A stretch of 64,000 nucleotides of DNA from Polynucleobacter sp. MWH-UH24A. Lineage in GTDB: Bacteria > Pseudomonadota > Gammaproteobacteria > Burkholderiales > Burkholderiaceae. Position numbers and translations under genes: made by a program. The stretch spans positions 682,001 to 746,000 of the forward strand of contig NZ_CP061292.1 in assembly GCF_018687475.1 (NCBI RefSeq). Reading direction: 5' to 3'. Below the pieces are notes generated by a model. It did not search any database. It was not told the DNA's origin and saw only the letters and a program-made list of their open reading frames with translations. Shown here one piece after another: positions 39,589 through 48,721 of the stretch (positions within the stretch are counted from its first letter, which is position 1; every line of letters begins with the position of its first letter).

Positions 39589-40071
39589 ATGCCATTCTCC
39601 CGCATTGAACCAGGCCCGAATAATCAATTTATGCCCATCGAGGCTCGGTTGATATTGGATAGCTATCAGCATTTTCTGGGTAAGTCTTGCATTGAATTAA
39701 CCAGTTCAAAGAATGCAGCGCAAATGCTCTATGAAGCCCCTTTTGCGGTGGTGGCGCATGATACCTTCGCAGACCCAATTTTTGCCTATGCCAATCGGAT
39801 GGCCCAGAATGCATTTGAGATGAATTGGGCAGAAATCACCTCGATTCCATCGCGTCAATCGGCGGAGCCGGTCTTGCAAGACGAGCGCCAATCCTTATTG
39901 CAGCGTGTGCAACAGTTTGGTTTTATCGATGATTACTCTGGTATTCGGATATCTAAGGGCGGTAAACGGTTTTGGATCCGTAATGCAACGGTATGGAATT
40001 TAATCGATGCGAATGGAGCGAGGGTGGGCCAAGCCGCCCGATTTGATCGCTGGGATTATTTACCAGCCTGA
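39589..40071 (+). CDS. MEKHLA (PAS-like) domain protein
   Basis: A 160-residue protein with the MEKHLA/PAS-like core: APFAVVAHDTFADPIFAYAN, ALxxFEMNWAEIT and the C-terminal FWIRNATVWNLID with RFDRWDYL. Bacterial members are stand-alone and of unknown function; the plant domain is sensory. It overlaps the convergent photolyase gene by 16 bases, and its PAS-like fold beside a light-driven enzyme is suggestive only. Confidence 0.8.
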   Translation: MPFSRIEPGPNNQFMPIEARLILDSYQHFLGKSCIELTSSKNAAQMLYEAPFAVVAHDTFADPIFAYANRMAQNAFEMNWAEITSIPSRQSAEPVLQDERQSLLQRVQQFGFIDDYSGIRISKGGKRFWIRNATVWNLIDANGARVGQAARFDRWDYLPA

Positions 40072-41612
40072 CTGTCTCGAAGTTCTGAAGCCTTGTCTTG
40101 AATTGCCAACTTGGCTTCATCGGTCATGCGTGCGAGATTGCGAACCTGCATGAGCATGCGTGGATTTTTGCTCATGGCGCTCTCATGGCGAATCAGAAAA
40201 TCCCAATACAGCGTGGTAAATGGACAGGCATTGGGACCGGTAGATTGATCGGGCTTAAAGACACAGTGCTTGCAATAGTTACTCATGCGATCAATGTATT
40301 TACCCGTTGCAATATATGGCTTACTGGCCATTAATCCGCCATCGGCAAATTGGCTCATACCAATGACATTGGGGAGCTCTACCCACTCGACAGCATCCAC
40401 ATACATACTTAAATACCAAGCATGAATTTCCTTTGGCTTGACACCAAGAAGGAGGGCGTAGAGACCGGTGACCATGAGGCGTTGAATATGGTGCGCATAG
40501 CCGGTTCGCAAACTCTGAGTAATCGTTTGCGATAAACAATGCATTGGGGTGTTACCGTCCCAGAAGAATGCCGGTAGAGCTTGATTGGCGTTTAACGCAT
40601 TGAGTTCAAGGTACTTTGGCATGTTCATCCAATAGATACCGCGGACATATTCACGCCAGCCTAAGATTTGACGAATAAATCCCTCAACCGCGGCAATTGG
40701 TGCCCGACCTTGACGATAGGTTTCTTCTGTAGCCTTCACCACCTCTTGAGCGGATAGTAATTTCAGATTTAGGGCACTTGCAATATGCGAATGAAATAAC
40801 CATGGCTCATCAGTCCACATGGCATCTTGATACACGCCAAACTCAGGTAGACGATGTTGAATAAAGTCATCCAAGGCACGCAGAGCCTCTTGCCGATTGA
40901 CCGGCCACCCAAAGCCAGAAGCGCTTGCAGTTACTGAACCGGGATGCGATGCAAACCGACTCTCAACCAGTTCGATCACCTCTTGGGTAATGCGATCGGG
41001 CTTGAGGCGCAGTGGTGGTGGTATAGGTGGAGGACCCTCTTTACCAAAGGAGGAGCGATTTTCGGAGTCAAAGTTCCATTCGCTACCGGCAGGGGAATCG
41101 CCATCCATGAGGACACGATGCTTTTTGCGAAGCTCGCGATACCAATACTCCAGACGCAGTTGCTTGCGACCTTTGGCATGTTCAAAAAACTCCCGAACGG
41201 TCGAGAAAAAATACCGATCCTCACGGATTTCTAGTTCAATGCCGGTTTGCAATGCCAGCTGTTTGATTTTCTCAAGAACCCGCCAATCCCCAGGGGCAGT
41301 CATAATGAGTCGGCTTGGATTGCATAGGGCAATGGTTCTGGCAAGCTCACCCTCAATGCTTTGGGTATTGTTCGGGTCATCGAGTTCACTGTAATGCAAT
41401 GCAATCTTTTCTTGACGCAACGATTGCGCAAAATGACGCATCGCACTAATAAATAAAGCAATCCGTTGCTTTGAAGACCAAATGTGGGTGGATTCTTCAT
41501 CCACTTCTGCCATCCATACTGCGTCTTGCTTCACATCAAAGCCGTCAAATGCGCTCGCATCCCGGTTGAGCTGATCGCCAAGGATAACGACTAAGGATCG
41601 AGTTTGGGCCAT
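40056..41612 (-). CDS. FeS-type bacterial cryptochrome/(6-4) photolyase
   Basis: A 518-residue protein of the FeS-BCP group (PhrB type). The N-terminal VILGDQLNRDASAF and antenna domain are followed by the FAD-binding domain (GWREYVRGIYW, NALPAFFWDG-like NQALPAFFWDG). Cysteines at about 359, 447, 450 and 463 match the spacing of the 4Fe-4S ligands known in Agrobacterium PhrB. The family repairs (6-4) photoproducts with blue light and often carries a lumazine antenna. It is useful to a sunlit phototroph. Confidence 0.9.
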   Translation of the reverse strand: MAQTRSLVVILGDQLNRDASAFDGFDVKQDAVWMAEVDEESTHIWSSKQRIALFISAMRHFAQSLRQEKIALHYSELDDPNNTQSIEGELARTIALCNPSRLIMTAPGDWRVLEKIKQLALQTGIELEIREDRYFFSTVREFFEHAKGRKQLRLEYWYRELRKKHRVLMDGDSPAGSEWNFDSENRSSFGKEGPPPIPPPLRLKPDRITQEVIELVESRFASHPGSVTASASGFGWPVNRQEALRALDDFIQHRLPEFGVYQDAMWTDEPWLFHSHIASALNLKLLSAQEVVKATEETYRQGRAPIAAVEGFIRQILGWREYVRGIYWMNMPKYLELNALNANQALPAFFWDGNTPMHCLSQTITQSLRTGYAHHIQRLMVTGLYALLLGVKPKEIHAWYLSMYVDAVEWVELPNVIGMSQFADGGLMASKPYIATGKYIDRMSNYCKHCVFKPDQSTGPNACPFTTLYWDFLIRHESAMSKNPRMLMQVRNLARMTDEAKLAIQDKASELRDSQAGK

Positions 41613-41838: not shown

Positions 41839-42288
41839 ATGGTAAAGCTAACCGTGAACGGCAAGGCAAGATCGGTTGATGTCGATCCTAACACCCCATT
41901 ATTGTGGGTGATTCGTGAGCAAATCGGATTAACTGGAACGAAGTATGGTTGCGGTATCGCGGCCTGCGGTTCCTGTACCGTACTATTGGACGGTGCAGCG
42001 GTCCGTTCCTGCGCCTTGCCCGTTAGTGCTGCAGCAGGTAAAAAGATTGAGACGGTTGAGAGTTTGGCCCAAGGCGGCAAGCTCAGCAAAGTTCAGCAGG
42101 CATTTGTTGAAAAACAAGCCCCGCAATGCGGCTATTGCCAGACCGGCATGGTGATGGCAGTCACCGCTTTACTACGAAGCAATCCAAAGCCAAGCGATGC
42201 CGATATTGATGCGGCAGTGACCAATATTTGTCGCTGTGGAACCTTTCAAGAAGTTCGGGCTGCGGTTCATGCCGCCGCTAAGGCTTAA
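41839..42288 (+). CDS. iorA: 2Fe-2S subunit of isoquinoline 1-oxidoreductase-type hydroxylase
   Basis: A 149-residue small subunit of the xanthine oxidase family. The first cluster loop is YGCGIAACGSCTVLLDG, and the second cluster uses CGYCQTGM and NICRCGTFQEVR. It transfers electrons from the molybdenum site in IorB. AAGGAGA precedes the ATG. It starts a six-gene run (iorA, iorB, soxX, soxY, soxZ, soxA) after a gap of about 225 bases in which I see no other gene or clear operator. Confidence 0.88.
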   Translation: MVKLTVNGKARSVDVDPNTPLLWVIREQIGLTGTKYGCGIAACGSCTVLLDGAAVRSCALPVSAAAGKKIETVESLAQGGKLSKVQQAFVEKQAPQCGYCQTGMVMAVTALLRSNPKPSDADIDAAVTNICRCGTFQEVRAAVHAAAKA

Positions 42289-42298
42289 GGAGAATACG

Positions 42299-44509
42299 AT
42301 GAATGCACCTGTACCAAATTTATCTCGCCGCCAATTCATTGTCGGATCCAGTGCAGTTTCTGCTGGATTAGCAATCGGTTTGGAGTTCCCAGCCGTGATT
42401 GGAAGTGCTCAAGCCTCCACAGCGCAAGCGGCAATGCCCCCTGAAATCGGGGTCTGGGTGATGATTCAGCCAAATGACACCGTGATTATTCGTGTAGTTC
42501 GCTCTGAAATGGGTCAGGGCACCATTACTGGCTTAGCTCAATTAGTCGCCGAGGAGTTGGAGTGCGATTGGAGGAAAATTACGATTGATTATCCGACTCC
42601 AGGAGAGAGCCTAAAGCGTAAAGGTGTTTGGGGATCATTCTCCACTGGTGGCAGTCGCGGCATTCGTACCTCTGAAGATTATGTTCGCAAAGGCGGTGCT
42701 GCAGCGCGCATCATGCTAGTTCAAGCAGCAGCAAATCAATGGGGTGTTCCTGCTGCAGAATGCTTGGCATCCAATAGCGTCATTTCCCATCAGGCAAGCG
42801 GTCGAACCATCAGTTATGGAAAAGTTGCTGCTGCTGCAGCGAAATTGCCTGTGCCTGACGCTAAGAATATTGAACTGAAAGATCCCAAGCGCTGGAAGGT
42901 GATTGGTAAGTCGATGGACCGCATTGATAGCTTGGCCGATAAAGTGACCGGCAAACAAGTCTATGCAATCGATCTGCAAATGCCTGGCATGCTAGTTGCT
43001 ACGATTAAGCAATGCCCGGTATTTGGCGGTAAGTTAAAAAGCTTTGATGCTAGCAAAGTAGCCAGCATGAAGGGTGTAAAAAAGGTAGTGCAGGTTAGCG
43101 ATACGTCCGTCGCTGTTGTTGCAGATACCTTCTGGCAGGCTAAGGTTGCTATGGATCAGTTGCCCATCGTTTGGGACGAAGGCGCCAATGCCAATGTTCA
43201 ACAGGCTGATATTCTGAAGCGTCTTGAGGAGGGATTAAATGCCAACGAAACCTTTGTTGGTAATGCCAATGGCGACTTTAAAAATGCAGCATCGGATGCC
43301 TCAAAGAAAATTGAAGCCAAATTCTTTTATCCATTCTTAAACCACGCTCCGATGGAGCCCATGAATGCAACTGCGTTGTGGACTGCGGATAAATGCCGTG
43401 CCTGGGTCCCCACACAAGATGGTGAGGCATCTCTTGCAGCCGTGATCGCAGCTTCTGGTCTAACAGCAGATAAATGCGATGTAATCAAAGTTAATCTTGG
43501 TGGTGGATTTGGACGACGCGGGGCGTTTCAGGATTACACAACTCAAGTGGTCAATATTGCAAAACAAATGCCTGGTACTCCCATTAAGCTCATTTGGACT
43601 CGTGAAGAGGATATGACCCAGGGTCGTTACCATCCCATCATGATGTGCAAGATGACCGGAACGTTTGATGATAAGAAAAACCTAACCGGTGTTCATATGC
43701 GCCTCTCAGGTCAGTCCATCTTGACGGCCGTTCGTCCTGCGGTGGTTGCCCAAAATAAAGGAATGGATCCATTGGTTTTCCAGGGGGTAGCAAAAGGTGG
43801 AGAGCATGGCATTAGCTATGATTTTCCTAACTTGACGATTGACCATGCCATGCGGAACACGCATGTGCCACCGGGTTTCTGGCGGGGCGTCAATATCAAT
43901 CAGAATGCTGTCTTTATGGAATGCTTCATGGACGAACTGGCAGAATATGCCGGAATGGATCCAGTCGAATTCAGACGCAAGTATTCAGCCAATTACCCAC
44001 GCAATTTGGCCGTTCTCAATGCGGTGGCCGATCGAATTGGTTGGACAAAACCTGCGCCCGCTGGTGTATTCCGAGGAATAGCGCAGCAAAAATCATTTGG
44101 TAGTTTTGTGGCGGCTGCTTGTGAAATCTCGGTCACCGATGGCAATAAGATCAAGATACATCGGATCGTTGCTGCTACGGATCCTGGTTATGCGGTTAAT
44201 CCGGCGCAAATTGAGCGTCAGGTTTCTGGATCCTTTGTTTATGGCCTCTCGGCATTGTTTGAAGAAGAGTGTACCGTCAAAAATGGGCGCATCGAGCAAA
44301 CCAATTTTGATACCTTTGGGTCGATTCGTTTGCGGCAAATGCCAAAAGTAGAAACGATCATTATTCAAGGTGGTGGAAAAGAGTGGGGTGGAATTGGTGA
44401 ACCCACTATTTCTGTTGCTGCTCCAGCCGTACTCAATGCCTATTACCGTGCAACCGGTAAGCGCGTTCGTACCGTACCACTTAAGAATAGCGGTATCACC
44501 CTTGTGTAA
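42299..44509 (+). CDS. iorB: Molybdopterin subunit of isoquinoline 1-oxidoreductase-type hydroxylase
   Basis: A 736-residue molybdenum hydroxylase with a twin-arginine signal (LSRRQFIVGSSAV), so it is folded in the cytoplasm and exported. MGQGTITGLAQLVAEEL, NLGGGFGRRGAFQDY, PPGFWRGVNINQNAVFMECF and GGIGEPTISVAAPA (with the catalytic Glu) match IorB-type proteins. These hydroxylate N-heterocycles or oxidise aldehydes, using a cytochrome as electron acceptor. The following sox genes supply cytochromes. XdhC and MocA genes nearby would mature its MCD cofactor. Confidence 0.88.
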   Translation: MNAPVPNLSRRQFIVGSSAVSAGLAIGLEFPAVIGSAQASTAQAAMPPEIGVWVMIQPNDTVIIRVVRSEMGQGTITGLAQLVAEELECDWRKITIDYPTPGESLKRKGVWGSFSTGGSRGIRTSEDYVRKGGAAARIMLVQAAANQWGVPAAECLASNSVISHQASGRTISYGKVAAAAAKLPVPDAKNIELKDPKRWKVIGKSMDRIDSLADKVTGKQVYAIDLQMPGMLVATIKQCPVFGGKLKSFDASKVASMKGVKKVVQVSDTSVAVVADTFWQAKVAMDQLPIVWDEGANANVQQADILKRLEEGLNANETFVGNANGDFKNAASDASKKIEAKFFYPFLNHAPMEPMNATALWTADKCRAWVPTQDGEASLAAVIAASGLTADKCDVIKVNLGGGFGRRGAFQDYTTQVVNIAKQMPGTPIKLIWTREEDMTQGRYHPIMMCKMTGTFDDKKNLTGVHMRLSGQSILTAVRPAVVAQNKGMDPLVFQGVAKGGEHGISYDFPNLTIDHAMRNTHVPPGFWRGVNINQNAVFMECFMDELAEYAGMDPVEFRRKYSANYPRNLAVLNAVADRIGWTKPAPAGVFRGIAQQKSFGSFVAAACEISVTDGNKIKIHRIVAATDPGYAVNPAQIERQVSGSFVYGLSALFEEECTVKNGRIEQTNFDTFGSIRLRQMPKVETIIIQGGGKEWGGIGEPTISVAAPAVLNAYYRATGKRVRTVPLKNSGITLV

Positions 44510-44512
44510 TTG

Positions 44513-44950
44513 ATGCGTGTTGGATTTAAGCTAGTCGTTTGTGCGTTACTAGCTTTTCCACACCCACTGTATGCACAACTGATTTGGGATGGCGATGCCA
44601 TCCCAAATTCATTAAGTGGGCAGCCTGGTGATCCCACTCGAGGAAAATCCATTGTCGTAAGTCGTCAAACGGGTTTGTGTATTTTGTGCCACAGCGTGCC
44701 ATCTACCGAGGAGCGATTTCAGGGAAATTTAGCACCCGATTTGCGCATCAGTGTAGGTAATTTAAATGCCGCTCAACTTCGTGCGCGTCTAGTCGATGCC
44801 TCACGTTTTCAACCCAACACGATTATGCCGTCTTACTATAGAATCGATCATCTTCATCGTGTTGCACCATCATTTGCAGGTAAAACGGTATTAAGTGGTC
44901 AAGACATTGAGGATGTGGTTGCCTATTTGCTAACAATCAAAACACCATGA
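44513..44950 (+). CDS. soxX: SoxX-like monohaem cytochrome c
   Basis: A 145-residue periplasmic cytochrome with signal peptide (ends LYAQL), haem site CILCH at residues 56-60 and the axial Met in PNTIMPSYY, then IEDVVAYLLTI, the layout of SoxX. It starts three bases after the iorB stop. SoxX pairs with SoxA to attach sulfur compounds to SoxY. An alternative in this operon is that it takes electrons from IorAB (inference). Confidence 0.85.
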   Translation: MRVGFKLVVCALLAFPHPLYAQLIWDGDAIPNSLSGQPGDPTRGKSIVVSRQTGLCILCHSVPSTEERFQGNLAPDLRISVGNLNAAQLRARLVDASRFQPNTIMPSYYRIDHLHRVAPSFAGKTVLSGQDIEDVVAYLLTIKTP

Positions 44951-45390
44951 GTTCACGTCGTTTATTTATTTCCTCCATGACGGCCATTTGTCTGAGCCCT
45001 TGGCATCGAGCACAAGCATCGACAAGCGATGCTCAGCAAGTTATTTCAAAAATCATTGGAAATCAGTCGGTCAAAACTGGAAGAATTTATTTTGAGCTTC
45101 CGCCTTTGGTTGAGAATGGCAATTTAGTTGCCGTGAAGTGTGCAGTCCAAAGCCCAATGACCGCCAATGATTATGTAAAAGTTATTCATATGATTGCTGA
45201 GGGCAATCCACTTCCCAATGTCGTGAGTTGCTATTTCACACCGCTATCAGGAAAGGCAGAATTTAGTACGCGGATTCGACTAGCAGATTCGCAGCGAGTA
45301 TGGGTCTTGGCTCAAATGAGTAATGGTGATTTCTGGCGAACTTCTGCTGACACGGTAGTCACTTTATCGGCTTGTACGGAGATGATATGA
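44947..45390 (+). CDS. soxY: SoxY-like sulfur carrier lacking the GGCGG tail
   Basis: A 147-residue protein with a Tat-like signal (SSRRLFISSM). The mature part has the SoxY fold with IxLxLPPLVENGNLVAVKCAV-like segments and VSCYFTPLSGKAEFSTRIRL. The usual C-terminal GGCGG, whose Cys carries the sulfur substrate, is replaced by TLSACTEMI: a cysteine is kept at 143 but without the flexible glycines and with two extra residues after it. It overlaps soxX by four bases and soxZ by ATGA. Confidence 0.8.
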   Translation: MSSRRLFISSMTAICLSPWHRAQASTSDAQQVISKIIGNQSVKTGRIYFELPPLVENGNLVAVKCAVQSPMTANDYVKVIHMIAEGNPLPNVVSCYFTPLSGKAEFSTRIRLADSQRVWVLAQMSNGDFWRTSADTVVTLSACTEMI

Positions 45391-45716
45391 GTCGCTCTTC
45401 ACGTGCCGTTGTTACCTTTTCAAATCAAGTAAAGCGTGGCGAATTATTTTCAATTCGGGCCATTGTTCAACACGATATGGAATCCGGCTTTCGTCATACC
45501 GAACAGGGTGTGCGGGTACCACGCGATATCATTCGGGAGTTTGTTTGTACCTACAATGGCCGACTCGTTTTTCGGGCCGATCTTCATCCAGGAATAGGAT
45601 CAAACCCGATTTTTATCTTTGATGCAAAGGCCGATCAATCTGGGATGATCGAGTGTAAATGGTCAGGGGATAACGGTTATTTAACCGTACTACAACAGCC
45701 AATTACCGTACTATGA
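45387..45716 (+). CDS. soxZ: SoxZ-like partner of SoxY
   Basis: A 109-residue all-beta cytoplasmically unprocessed partner that travels with SoxY. VKRGELFSIRAIVQHDMESGFR and the HxMExGxR motif, the IIREFVCTYNGRLVF middle and FDAKADQSGMIECKWSGDNG end match SoxZ. The start ATG overlaps the soxY stop. Confidence 0.88.
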   Translation: MSRSSRAVVTFSNQVKRGELFSIRAIVQHDMESGFRHTEQGVRVPRDIIREFVCTYNGRLVFRADLHPGIGSNPIFIFDAKADQSGMIECKWSGDNGYLTVLQQPITVL

Positions 45717-46471
45717 TTCAAGCGTTTGGTTCGCTTGCCATCAGTTTTTTTCTTTTCACCCATTCGGCACTCGCAGATTCTCGCCAATCGGCATACCAGC
45801 TTCTATCCCCAACCAATCAAGCGATGCAAAATGATATGAATCTCAATCCAGCACTTTTTGCAGTGATGGATGGTGAAGCTCTTTGGCAAGAAAAATCCCA
45901 GGCCAATGGCAAATCGTGTGCATCTTGTCATGGGGATGTCAAACAATCGATGCGGGGCGTTTTTGCAACCTACCCAAAAATCATGCATCAGAAATTACAA
46001 AATATGGAGGGTCAGATCAATGCTTGTCGTACCCGCCATCAGCACTTACCTGCGTTTGCATACGAAAGTAAGCCGATGCTAGCGCTTAGTACTTTGATCG
46101 CTTTGCAGTCACGCGGCTCGCCGATTCAGGCTACACCGCTGGGAGATGTTAAAAAAGAGTATGAGTCCGGTAAGAGCCTATATTTTCAACGGATTGGTCA
46201 GCTTAATTTGTCTTGTGCGCAGTGTCATGATGATCGGGCTGGTTTAAAACTTGGTGGGAGTGTTATTCCCCAGGCGCATCCTACCGGTTATCCCATTTAT
46301 CGGATTGAATGGCAAGGAATGGGATCGTTGCAACGCCGCTTAAGAAACTGCCTGTCGGGAGTACGTGCCCAAACCTATGCCTATGGGTCGAACGAGCTAA
46401 TGCAAATTGAGCTCTATTTAATGCATCGTGCAAATGGCATGATCATAGAAAGCCCGGGAATTCGTCCTTAG
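45713..46471 (+). CDS. soxA: SoxA-like dihaem cytochrome c
   Basis: A 252-residue periplasmic protein with signal peptide, haem sites CASCH (69-73) and CAQCH (167-171), and the active-site Cys212 in the conserved RLRNCLSGVRAQ, whose cysteine ligates haem and takes the sulfur in SoxAX. GYPIYRIEWQGMGSLQRRL is also typical. It overlaps soxZ by four bases and ends the operon. No soxB, soxC or soxD follows: the next gene is the convergent xdhC. Confidence 0.88.
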   Translation: MIQAFGSLAISFFLFTHSALADSRQSAYQLLSPTNQAMQNDMNLNPALFAVMDGEALWQEKSQANGKSCASCHGDVKQSMRGVFATYPKIMHQKLQNMEGQINACRTRHQHLPAFAYESKPMLALSTLIALQSRGSPIQATPLGDVKKEYESGKSLYFQRIGQLNLSCAQCHDDRAGLKLGGSVIPQAHPTGYPIYRIEWQGMGSLQRRLRNCLSGVRAQTYAYGSNELMQIELYLMHRANGMIIESPGIRP

Positions 46472-47418
46472 GAAGCATTCTTTCCGTATTTAACAGCGAT
46501 TACCTCTGCCATGATCGAAACTGCGATTTCGGGTGGGGTTAAAGCCCCAATCGCTAGGCCTACAGGGCCATGCAGTCGCTCTAGCTGTTCGGTAGAGAGG
46601 TTAAATTCTCTTAGCCGCTCTTTGCGTTTTTGGGTATTGGTATGACTGCCCAATGCTCCAACGTAGAAGGCTTCAGATTGGAGGGCATCAATCAGGGCTA
46701 AATCATCAATTTTTGGATCATGCGTGAGCGCCACAATGGCAGTATGCGAGTCCACCCCTAACTCTTGCATCACATCGTCTGGCATTCCTTGAATAAACTG
46801 AATTCCCTCGGATCCGATTCCCTCCGCGTACTCTTCGCGTGGATCAATGATGGTGATGTCAAAGTCTGAGGTTAAGGCAAAACTGGCTAAACAAAGAGAG
46901 AGTTGACCGGCTCCAATAATGAACATCCGCCAGCGGGGACCATAAATAGTCTGCATTTTCTCATTCGAAAATTGGAACTGTGTAGAGCGATTTCCGATAC
47001 TTAGGGTTGATTGACCAGTTAGTACGTCCACTTCGCGTAATACGATGGAACGTTTTTTAATACCGCTCATGATCGCCTCAAGAATCGCAAGCTCGGGCCG
47101 CGGTTCAACTAAGAGCTGGAGCGTTCCTCCGCAAGGAAGCCCAAAGCGAACCGCCTCATCCTTGCTAACCCCATATTTAACTAATTCAGGTGATGTTCGA
47201 GTCAAAATCTCCGTTTGCACACGCCGAATTAAATCATCTTCTACACAACCTCCGGAGACGGATCCAACAACCTGTCCATCTTCTCGTATGGCAAGCCATG
47301 AGCCAACTGGCCGAGGAGAGGATCCCCAGGTTTGGACAACCGTAGCTAACGCAACACGCTTTCCATCCTGCAACCAACTAATGGCGGATTGGAGGACTTG
47401 ATAATCAGTACTATTCAT
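46468..47418 (-). CDS. xdhC: XdhC/CoxI-family molybdenum cofactor maturation protein
   Basis: A 316-residue protein. The N-terminal XdhC part has TWGSSPRPVGSWLAI, SVSGGCVEDDLIRR and LPCGGTLQLLVEP, and the C-terminal Rossmann domain has FIIGAGQLSLCLASFA. The family binds and sulfurates Moco and inserts it in xanthine oxidase-type enzymes. Its place beside iorAB and mocA indicates that it serves IorB. It is convergent with soxA with a four-base overlap. Confidence 0.87.
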   Translation of the reverse strand: MNSTDYQVLQSAISWLQDGKRVALATVVQTWGSSPRPVGSWLAIREDGQVVGSVSGGCVEDDLIRRVQTEILTRTSPELVKYGVSKDEAVRFGLPCGGTLQLLVEPRPELAILEAIMSGIKKRSIVLREVDVLTGQSTLSIGNRSTQFQFSNEKMQTIYGPRWRMFIIGAGQLSLCLASFALTSDFDITIIDPREEYAEGIGSEGIQFIQGMPDDVMQELGVDSHTAIVALTHDPKIDDLALIDALQSEAFYVGALGSHTNTQKRKERLREFNLSTEQLERLHGPVGLAIGALTPPEIAVSIMAEVIAVKYGKNAS

Positions 47419-47481
47419 GTACTAGAGTTTAATGGTAGTGTTTAATGCCTATTTGAATTGATCAAAACCCTGATTTTCTAT

Positions 47482-48084
47482 ATGCCCAAAATTGCCATTC
47501 TTCTTCTTGCTGCTGGTCAGGGGGCTCGATTAGGTGGTTATCCCAAAGGGCTGCTAATGAAAGATGGGGTGCCCTTACTGAGTCGATTTTGGCTTGAGGC
47601 TTCCCAATTGCAGCCGTGCGAAGCCATTACTGTCTTGGGTTTTTACGCAGATCGTTTAAGACCCTTGGCTTTGCAATACTCCAAGACAATCACGAATGAT
47701 CAACCGGAACGAGGCCAATCCTCCTCGGTCCGAATTGGTCTTGCCGCCTTGCAATCAAATTACGAATATCTATTGATCGGTCTGGTGGATCAACCTCAGA
47801 TCACCTTACGCGAGCTACAAGCCCTCATGACCCACGCAGAGCATGTTCGAGGTCAAGTAAGAGCGATTGTTCCTTGTTATCAGGGTCAACGAGGTAATCC
47901 AGTTGTATTAACTCGGAGCGCAGTAGAGGCTGTGTTAGCAACCCCAAATCAAGGATGTCGAGAGTGGTTGGATCAAAATCCTGATCATGTTTTATTTATC
48001 GACATGCCTCACGAATCATATATTCGAGATGTCGATACGATGACCGATCTTGAGTATGAGAATCTTTCTATGAGTCACTCATAA
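47482..48084 (+). CDS. mocA: MocA/MobA-like molybdenum cofactor nucleotidyltransferase
   Basis: A 200-residue nucleotidyltransferase. AILLLAAGQGARLGGYPKGL has the signature LAAGxGxRxG with the K of the family, GLVDQP is the metal-binding motif, and GQRGNPVVL follows. Sequence type and xdhC neighbourhood favour MocA, which makes molybdopterin cytosine dinucleotide (MCD) for IorB-type enzymes. The ATG at 47482 is chosen, as the family begins here. Confidence 0.85.
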   Translation: MPKIAILLLAAGQGARLGGYPKGLLMKDGVPLLSRFWLEASQLQPCEAITVLGFYADRLRPLALQYSKTITNDQPERGQSSSVRIGLAALQSNYEYLLIGLVDQPQITLRELQALMTHAEHVRGQVRAIVPCYQGQRGNPVVLTRSAVEAVLATPNQGCREWLDQNPDHVLFIDMPHESYIRDVDTMTDLEYENLSMSHS

Positions 48085-48088
48085 TCCA

Positions 48089-48721
48089 ATGAAAAAAACA
48101 CATTTCGCAGATGATGCAGCCCAATTTTGGGATAAGCGATTTTCGAGGGATGAGTATGTATTTGGCAAAGACCCAAATGCTTACTTAAAAGATCAGGTAA
48201 CAAGCCGCATGAAATCAGGTGGGAATGCTCTCTGCATCGCTGATGGCGAGGGGCGAAATAGCGTCTGGCTAGCTCAGCAGGGAATGATTGTGGAGGCCTT
48301 TGATATATCGCCAGTGGCCGTAGAAAAGGCAAGGCAATTAGCCAAGCACCAATTGGTATCGGTTGCATTAAATGTTGCTAGCACCGATTCTTGGACGTGG
48401 AAACTGAATCACTACGATTTAATCGCAGCCATATTTATTCAGTTTGCGACCCCCAATATGCGTGTTGACCTCTTTGCCCACATACGCCAATCCCTAAAAC
48501 CCGGTGGATATCTAATCCTTCAGGGGTATACGCCCAAGCAATTGGAATATAAGACGGGTGGCCCACCGAGTATTGATCATCTCTACACCACTGAATTAAT
48601 TCAGGATCTCTTAAGAGGAATGGAAATCTGTGATTGGCAAGAGTACGAAGCAGAAATTCATGAGGGTGAAGGACATCGTGGCATGTCTGCCTTGATGGGC
48701 GTGGTTGCTCGTAAACTCTAA
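48089..48721 (+). CDS. Class I SAM-dependent methyltransferase (TehB-like)
   Basis: A 210-residue methyltransferase. FWDKRFSRDEYVFGKDPNAYL and CIADGEGRNSVWLAQQG form the TehB-like SAM fold; the usual L-x-x-G-x-G motif I is IADGEGRN here. SPGG-type LKPGGYLILQGY follows. The substrate is unknown. It begins four bases after mocA, so it may be co-transcribed. Confidence 0.78.
   Translation: MKKTHFADDAAQFWDKRFSRDEYVFGKDPNAYLKDQVTSRMKSGGNALCIADGEGRNSVWLAQQGMIVEAFDISPVAVEKARQLAKHQLVSVALNVASTDSWTWKLNHYDLIAAIFIQFATPNMRVDLFAHIRQSLKPGGYLILQGYTPKQLEYKTGGPPSIDHLYTTELIQDLLRGMEICDWQEYEAEIHEGEGHRGMSALMGVVARKL

Follow-up and report, generated by a model that had tools for sequence, protein, structure and literature searches.

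Conserved linkage of a predicted exported IorAB-type hydroxylase with a divergent SoxXYZA set in Polynucleobacter and other proteobacteria

The window analyzed here is a 64,000-nucleotide stretch of the genome of Polynucleobacter sp. MWH-UH24A (all feature coordinates refer to this stretch, and "the genus" means Polynucleobacter), and it carries a gene group, iorAB-soxXYZA, that we call the cassette. An initial annotation had placed these six genes on one strand, with overlaps or gaps of at most 10 bases, and xdhC next to them on the other strand. Matches to Pfam and NCBIfam profiles, with scores compared to the curated cut-offs, identified the genes and confirmed this arrangement (Table 1). 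iorA and iorB are 10 bp apart when the latter is started at the ATG at 42299, in an open reading frame (ORF) that is open from 42236. iorB and soxX are 0 bp apart, soxX starting at either TTG 44510 or ATG 44513, and 4-bp overlaps join soxX to soxY, soxY to soxZ, and soxZ to soxA. The soxZ ORF is open from 45372, and it is its ATG at 45387 that overlaps the soxY stop. The xdhC-like gene is followed in turn by a mocA-like gene on the plus strand, whose product reaches 98 bits with TIGR03310, below the cut-off of 186.

Table 1. Genes of the cassette and of the adjoining molybdenum cofactor (Moco) functions in the window
Feature	Position	Strand	Basis
iorA-like small subunit, two [2Fe-2S] domains	41839..42288	+	Fer2, Fer2_2
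iorB-like Moco-binding large subunit, twin-arginine signal	42299..44509	+	MoCoBD_1/2, TAT signal
soxX-like monohaem cytochrome c	44510..44950	+	TIGR04485 above cut-off, 1h31_B alignment
soxY-like carrier, arm ...TLSACTEMI replacing GGCGG	44947..45390	+	PF13501, TIGR04487 best, alignments
soxZ-like partner	45387..45716	+	PF08770
soxA-like dihaem cytochrome c, cysteine haem ligand retained	45713..46471	+	TIGR04484 above cut-off, 1h31_A alignment
xdhC-like Moco maturation factor	46468..47418	-	XdhC_C, XdhC_CoxI; part of all-or-none block
mocA-like Moco nucleotidyltransferase	47458..48084	+	NTP_transf_3; part of all-or-none block

Among the four Sox-like proteins, SoxA and SoxX scored above the cut-offs of their NCBIfam models (TIGR04484, 208.7 bits against 110, and TIGR04485, 67.6 bits against 61, respectively), SoxX having no Pfam match at 0.001. 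SoxZ matched PF08770 with 76.8 bits and TIGR04490 with 67.2 bits, below the cut-off of 76. SoxY matched PF13501 with 87.4 bits, and its top NCBIfam model was TIGR04487, "SoxY-related AACIE arm protein." At 170.8 bits against a cut-off of 172, the window protein stands at the edge of that family, the cut-off being passed in 88 of 151 genomes of the genus. The TIGR04487 entry gives a protein name only, and the AACIE-arm phrase was not found in our literature search.

The arm of the window SoxY ends in SACTEMI, whereas that of the canonical SoxY of the same genome ends in LGGCGG. Other noncanonical arms read SACTELV, AACTEEVI, AACLIG, AACVIG, SACIDGG, NACFDAT, SACFDAS, and SSCWDGT. According to the alignment, all 17 noncanonical SoxY rows retain the arm cysteine, and none of the 17 retains the glycines of GGCGG. 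The window SoxA, which can be aligned with 1h31_A, is a dihaem protein. Two CxxCH motifs and the cysteine of RLRxC were found in 18 of 18 noncanonical SoxA rows, and the canonical SoxA of the same genome has one CxxCH only. The window SoxX, aligned to 1h31_B, retains its CxxCH and the methionine of TIMP. We take the roles of these residues, such as ligation of the catalytic haem by the SoxA cysteine, to be those described for SoxAX, and by sequence the pair has the features of a SoxXA with a cysteine-ligated haem. The ratio of nonsynonymous to synonymous substitution rates (dN/dS) of the six genes relative to genome G101 was 0.016 to 0.24; in comparisons with G069 and G077, dN/dS is unreliable, since most genes have reached or nearly reached saturation at synonymous sites.

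The source genome is a single contig of 1.915 Mb, rated 100% complete, in which PF13501 detects two SoxY proteins, one per sox locus. A full-length SoxB match is located at C1:969291-970979, about 240 kb from the cassette, and the ORFs of the canonical locus (L013), named by reading, are soxC, soxD, soxY (LGGCGG), soxZ, soxA, soxX, soxB, and a DsrE-like gene. The absence of soxB, soxC, and soxD noted in the initial annotation thus holds for the window and not for the genome, and its description of a truncated Sox system had to be abandoned, since the canonical locus has its own soxYZAX, to which the window genes add a paralogous set. A truncated or decaying Sox system was likewise rejected in view of the canonical set elsewhere in the genome and the purifying selection on the cassette. 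The window genes instead encode a second SoxXYZA, divergent from the canonical one and with another carrier arm. This set shares with canonical Sox the SoxX, SoxA, SoxY, and SoxZ families, the SoxA haem motifs with the cysteine ligand, and the SoxY arm cysteine, but its operon comes without SoxB or SoxCD, its arm is SACTEMI or another of the sequences above instead of GGCGG, and it is tied to iorAB.

The initial annotation had named soxB and soxCD elsewhere in the genome as an argument against its reading. Both are present, but together with an XYZA set of their own. SoxB was detected in 145 of the 151 genomes of the genus (140 above the cut-off). A spare SoxXYZA could nonetheless feed thiosulfate to the canonical SoxB and SoxCD encoded in the same genome, and 14 of the 18 cassette genomes tested do have SoxB. 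The remaining four (G225, G368, G456, and G470) gave no SoxB match; their assemblies are all rated 100% complete, two consist of one contig, and each has a single SoxY, that of the cassette. No other observation speaks as strongly as these four genomes against the set being accessory to thiosulfate oxidation. Furthermore, four relatives that lack the cassette (G063, G104, G121, and G125) keep soxB, and G063 (L014), the one of which the locus was read, retains the whole canonical set. Bradyrhizobium diazoefficiens possesses soxY1 and soxY2, and only soxY1 is essential for thiosulfate oxidation according to the account in PMC5748708, which cites Masuda et al. 2010. The B. diazoefficiens strain tested here (L135) has three SoxY proteins, one about 3 kb from SoxB, one belonging to the cassette, and one in a 286-residue frame; from these SoxY and SoxB positions, soxY2 is most likely the cassette gene. 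If it is, its dispensability for thiosulfate oxidation (as summarized in PMC5748708) also speaks against a spare set, as does an arm that is not GGCGG. We consequently consider this explanation highly unlikely and rejected it as the principal one.

To describe the linkage within the genus, we counted altered SoxY proteins at 84 bits or more (96 of the 151 genomes, some with partial or split matches) and IorB at 69% identity or above (93 genomes, partial matches included). SoxY matches of 78 bits or less were excluded; they belong to a second form (see below) or, in the loci that were opened, proved canonical. Both proteins were found in 93 genomes, SoxY alone in 3, IorB alone in none, and neither in 55. 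The genomes of the genus are related, and the Fisher value for this co-occurrence is descriptive only. IorB and the altered SoxY lie within 2 kb of each other in 90 of the 93 genomes and on different contigs in the other 3 (G022, G083, and G094). SoxY without IorB occurs in G030, G037, and G130; in G037, the contig breaks off within SoxY, on the side expected for iorB, and no IorB was found elsewhere in that genome. Some copies are interrupted: in G106, the IorB match contains stops and the SoxY match is in two pieces, and in G117, the IorA match is in two frames. The canonical soxB match of these two genomes also has internal stops, one in G106 and three in G117.

The cassette and the two Moco genes after it, eight genes in all, were missing as one block in 4 of 4 relatives examined, namely, those mentioned above, in which no IorB match was found. 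The genes that flank the cassette (40056-41612 and 48089-48721) are 134, 85, 85, and 85 bp apart in G063, G104, G121, and G125, respectively, versus 6476 bp in the window, as measured from tblastn ends. Since the flanks nearly abut in these relatives, iorAB, soxXYZA, xdhC, and the mocA-like gene come and go together in the subclade of the window. In six loci of another subclade of the genus (L168, L169, L171, L172, L214, and L215), the cassette has no xdhC or mocA next to it, and in all six the cassette or its remnant lies between lrgAB and purU. A second form was seen in four opened loci of the genus (L210 to L213), with an IorB that is 53 to 57% identical to the Bradyrhizobium cassette IorB and convergent to soxXYZA, the two being oppositely transcribed yet side by side. 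FccB is on the other side in two of the four loci, and the arms are NACFDAT (twice), SSCWDGT, and SACFDAS. A protein of 512 to 533 residues adjoins soxX in L210, L212, and L213; that of L213 is a CYTH-CHAD protein according to Pfam, and the others look alike by eye.

Outside the genus, we used a sample of 398 genomes of the phylum, in 32 of which the altered-SoxY model matched at an E value of 1e-30 or better. Ten weaker loci that were opened (L039 to L048) all have GGCGG arms, and five further matches had no locus. IorB at 53% identity or more was present in 23 genomes of the sample, five of them in the genus of the window, and a non-GGCGG SoxY was located within 2.6 kb of IorB in 20 of these 23. 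soxYZ is retained in 20 of the 21 Sox-linked genomes; G289 (L217) carries iorAB-soxX-soxA with no soxYZ in between. The best 80 matches listed in a scan of contigs include 76 Bradyrhizobium records. Among these 80 loci, IorB was found in 77, IorA in 74, and FccB in 79, all on the same strand as SoxY, and the three loci without IorB are cut by the contig end. L053 and L054 (family f57) contain iorAB, a gene for an FCSD-type flavoprotein, and soxXYZA, and after these a 500-residue XdhC-type gene, which in L053 is an xdhC-mocA fusion shortly after soxA. As for substrate hints, the 65 full-length loci among the best 80 listed have an MFS transporter gene nearby in 52 cases and a MarR regulator gene in 6, and no neighbor gene was common to all lineages. 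The iorAB-soxXYZA linkage, which the initial annotation had proposed to look for in relatives, is therefore conserved in the genus and recurs outside it, in other families as well as in Bradyrhizobium, where flavocytochrome c genes go with it, and it is more than chance; the lack of conservation that would have counted against that reading was not found.

We then examined the partner enzyme. The small subunit has two [2Fe-2S] domains, and the large subunit has Moco domains with the GGGFGRR and GEP motifs, the latter providing the glutamate, as in IorAB/AldFGH-type enzymes. The twin-arginine signal of IorB scored 17.5 bits with TIGR01409, just above the cut-off of 16.7. IorAB is thus predicted to be a molybdenum/[2Fe-2S] enzyme with a twin-arginine translocation (Tat) signal and no flavin adenine dinucleotide (FAD) subunit in its operon. 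The exported hydroxylases of the IorAB/AldFGH type likewise combine a small subunit with two [2Fe-2S] domains and a large subunit that binds Moco and carries a Tat signal, and no FAD subunit adjoins them. IorA and IorB missed the cut-offs of all named NCBIfam equivalog models, and the sequence therefore does not reveal the substrate. The nearest solved enzyme of this type is 8gy3, and the nearest solved relative of IorB by sequence is its chain 8gy3_C, the large subunit of an aldehyde dehydrogenase (E value of 2.6e-73). This relationship, together with the arm cysteine having neighbors that differ from those of thiosulfate carriers, would fit a SoxY cysteine that ferries an aldehyde or acyl group, as a thiohemiacetal or thioester, to or from IorAB. 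Enzymes of this family, however, oxidize free aldehydes, and FccB and SoxAX point to a sulfur rather than a carbon cargo, which makes such a carrier quite improbable.

A phylogenetic analysis of IorB (27 rows) placed the 12 cassette IorBs together with a long-branch homologue without Sox (L158) on one branch supported at 100/100; the 12 cassette IorBs alone formed a clade in 28% of 200 bootstrap trees. This tree omits L161 and L159 (internal stops), L160, L162, and L197 (short or distant pieces), and matches without a locus. The cassette IorBs yielded no signature of docking to Sox, since most of the distinguishing residues are common to Sox-less relatives of the subfamily (L216 and L218). An iorAB pair with an IorB of about 50% identity and no Sox genes beside it is also present in G077 (L167, 6373-9112).

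The cassette operon differs from other IorAB/AldFGH-type systems in having no multihaem cytochrome subunit, with SoxX and the dihaem SoxA in that place. In 7 of 16 other IorB-homologue loci from these genomes (L186, L187, L188, L191, L192, L193, and L199), a protein with two or three CxxCH motifs is encoded just downstream on the same strand. The three-CxxCH protein of L187 is a cytochrome c according to Pfam, and the two-CxxCH proteins of L193 and L199 match no Pfam family. Given that SoxX and a dihaem SoxA together carry three haem motifs and that G289 has soxXA without soxYZ, the simplest core of any explanation is that SoxXA accepts the electrons of IorAB. The initial annotation had offered two ideas, namely, that the cytochromes accept electrons from IorAB or that SoxYZ carries a product of the hydroxylase, and the G289 locus favors the former as the core. 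It could even be the whole function, SoxX and SoxA replacing a multihaem cytochrome and SoxYZ being a structural partner that carries nothing; the downstream CxxCH proteins and the G289 locus would fit, as would L218 (G446), where a cytochrome c and a cytochrome P460-type protein flank iorAB in place of Sox. We regard this as unlikely, because the SoxA and SoxY arm cysteines are kept in all aligned cassette rows, soxYZ persists in nearly all the Sox-linked genomes of the phylum sample, as counted above, and a downstream protein of this kind is missing from 9 of the 16 other IorB loci.

The Moco maturation genes could fit a different role, in which the Sox-like set would protect or repair the IorAB cofactor in the periplasm by removing nucleophilic sulfur species or by returning the labile sulfido ligand of molybdenum, which XdhC adds only in the cytoplasm. 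Consistent with this idea, xdhC and mocA belong to the window block, and the fused xdhC-mocA gene of L053 is near soxA. In addition, a review (PMC12997753) proposes maturation, redox control, or protection of the cofactor as possible roles of the fused SoxYZ-like protein that accompanies pyrroloquinoline quinone (PQQ) alcohol dehydrogenases. Nevertheless, iorAB occurs without Sox in L216 and L220, and the redox chemistry of SoxAX is not obviously needed for such a task, so that we also consider this role improbable, about as much as that of a bare electron acceptor.

The retained SoxA and SoxY cysteines and the FccB of the Bradyrhizobium-type operons suggest that sulfur chemistry also takes place. 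We therefore tentatively favor, over the acceptor, cofactor, aldehyde-carrier, and spare-set explanations, a dedicated SoxB-independent Sox-type module, in which SoxAX would take the electrons of IorAB and the altered SoxYZ would handle the sulfur of an organosulfur or thiol-reactive substrate. In the periplasm, IorAB would hydroxylate a small organic substrate at a carbon atom and hand the electrons to SoxX and SoxA, in place of the multihaem cytochrome found beside some other IorABs. SoxAX would then couple a thiol or sulfane sulfur of the substrate, or released from it, to the SoxY cysteine, and FccAB would oxidize sulfide where it is present in the operon. In this way, a single organosulfur (or thiol-reactive) compound would have its carbon and its sulfur oxidized jointly.

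Several observations weigh against joint oxidation by this module. FccAB is absent from the window operon. G030 and G130 keep soxXYZA with no iorAB at the site, although another IorB (50 to 52% identity) is found elsewhere in these genomes. G035 has, in addition to its cassette, a second IorAB (L220, 6439-9096; IorB of 69% identity), and the 17 kb retrieved around it contain no Sox genes; in the phylum sample, G336 has iorAB-xdhC (IorB of 57% identity) and G446 has an IorB of 53% identity, both with no Sox beside. G289, G336, and G446 were not among the matches of the altered-SoxY model, and no wider SoxY search was made in these genomes. G336, G446, and G035 on the one hand and G030 and G130 on the other indicate that IorAB can exist without Sox and Sox without IorAB. 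Finally, the equation of soxY2 with the cassette gene is a probable one drawn from gene positions.

More broadly, the module might represent a further kind of Sox pathway, shared by the genus, rhizobia, and other proteobacteria, in which SoxAX, a GGCGG-less SoxYZ, and an exported molybdenum hydroxylase would form a periplasmic circuit that needs neither SoxB nor SoxCD to oxidize both the carbon and the sulfur of an organosulfur compound, a generalization that we find less likely than not. The initial annotation had proposed an undescribed periplasmic pathway. A separate pathway is probable, and an iorAB-Sox operon was not described in a literature search at the level of titles and abstract openings. 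The SoxY with an AACIE arm is already named in NCBIfam, and Sox-like carriers beside dehydrogenases are known in one other setting. The linkage itself is real and conserved. As a case of a Sox-type carrier that accompanies a carbon dehydrogenase, the nearest precedent we found is the SoxYZ-like protein associated with PQQ dehydrogenases (TIGR04557, quinoprotein dehydrogenase-associated SoxYZ-like carrier; PP_2677; PMC12997753), which is similarly kept with a periplasmic dehydrogenase. That system has SoxY and SoxZ fused and comes with SoxH-like and rhodanese proteins, SoxAX not being named in the review section on it, whereas the two carrier genes are separate in the cassette. The window SoxY reached 47.6 bits with TIGR04557, against a cut-off of 140. 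In each of 12 Bradyrhizobium-type genomes, a further SoxY match was seen in an open frame of 281 to 334 residues, perhaps a PQQ-associated fused SoxYZ-like carrier.

The presence of soxA, soxX, soxY, and soxZ is commonly read as a sign of thiosulfate oxidation. Since the cassette carries all four and provides the sole SoxY, without SoxB, in 4 of 18 genomes, assigning thiosulfate oxidation from these genes can mislead. If IorAB is truly coupled to the set, there is a second setting in which Sox-type carriers work for carbon enzymes, and a tractable Bradyrhizobium gives access to a periplasmic oxidation that is as yet uncharted and may act on organosulfur compounds. With respect to the flavoproteins, the FCSD domain occurs in 144 of the 151 genomes of the genus, and a cytochrome gene and an FCSD-type flavoprotein gene are found together at G000:C1:1334249 (L170, 4756-6453), far from both sox loci.

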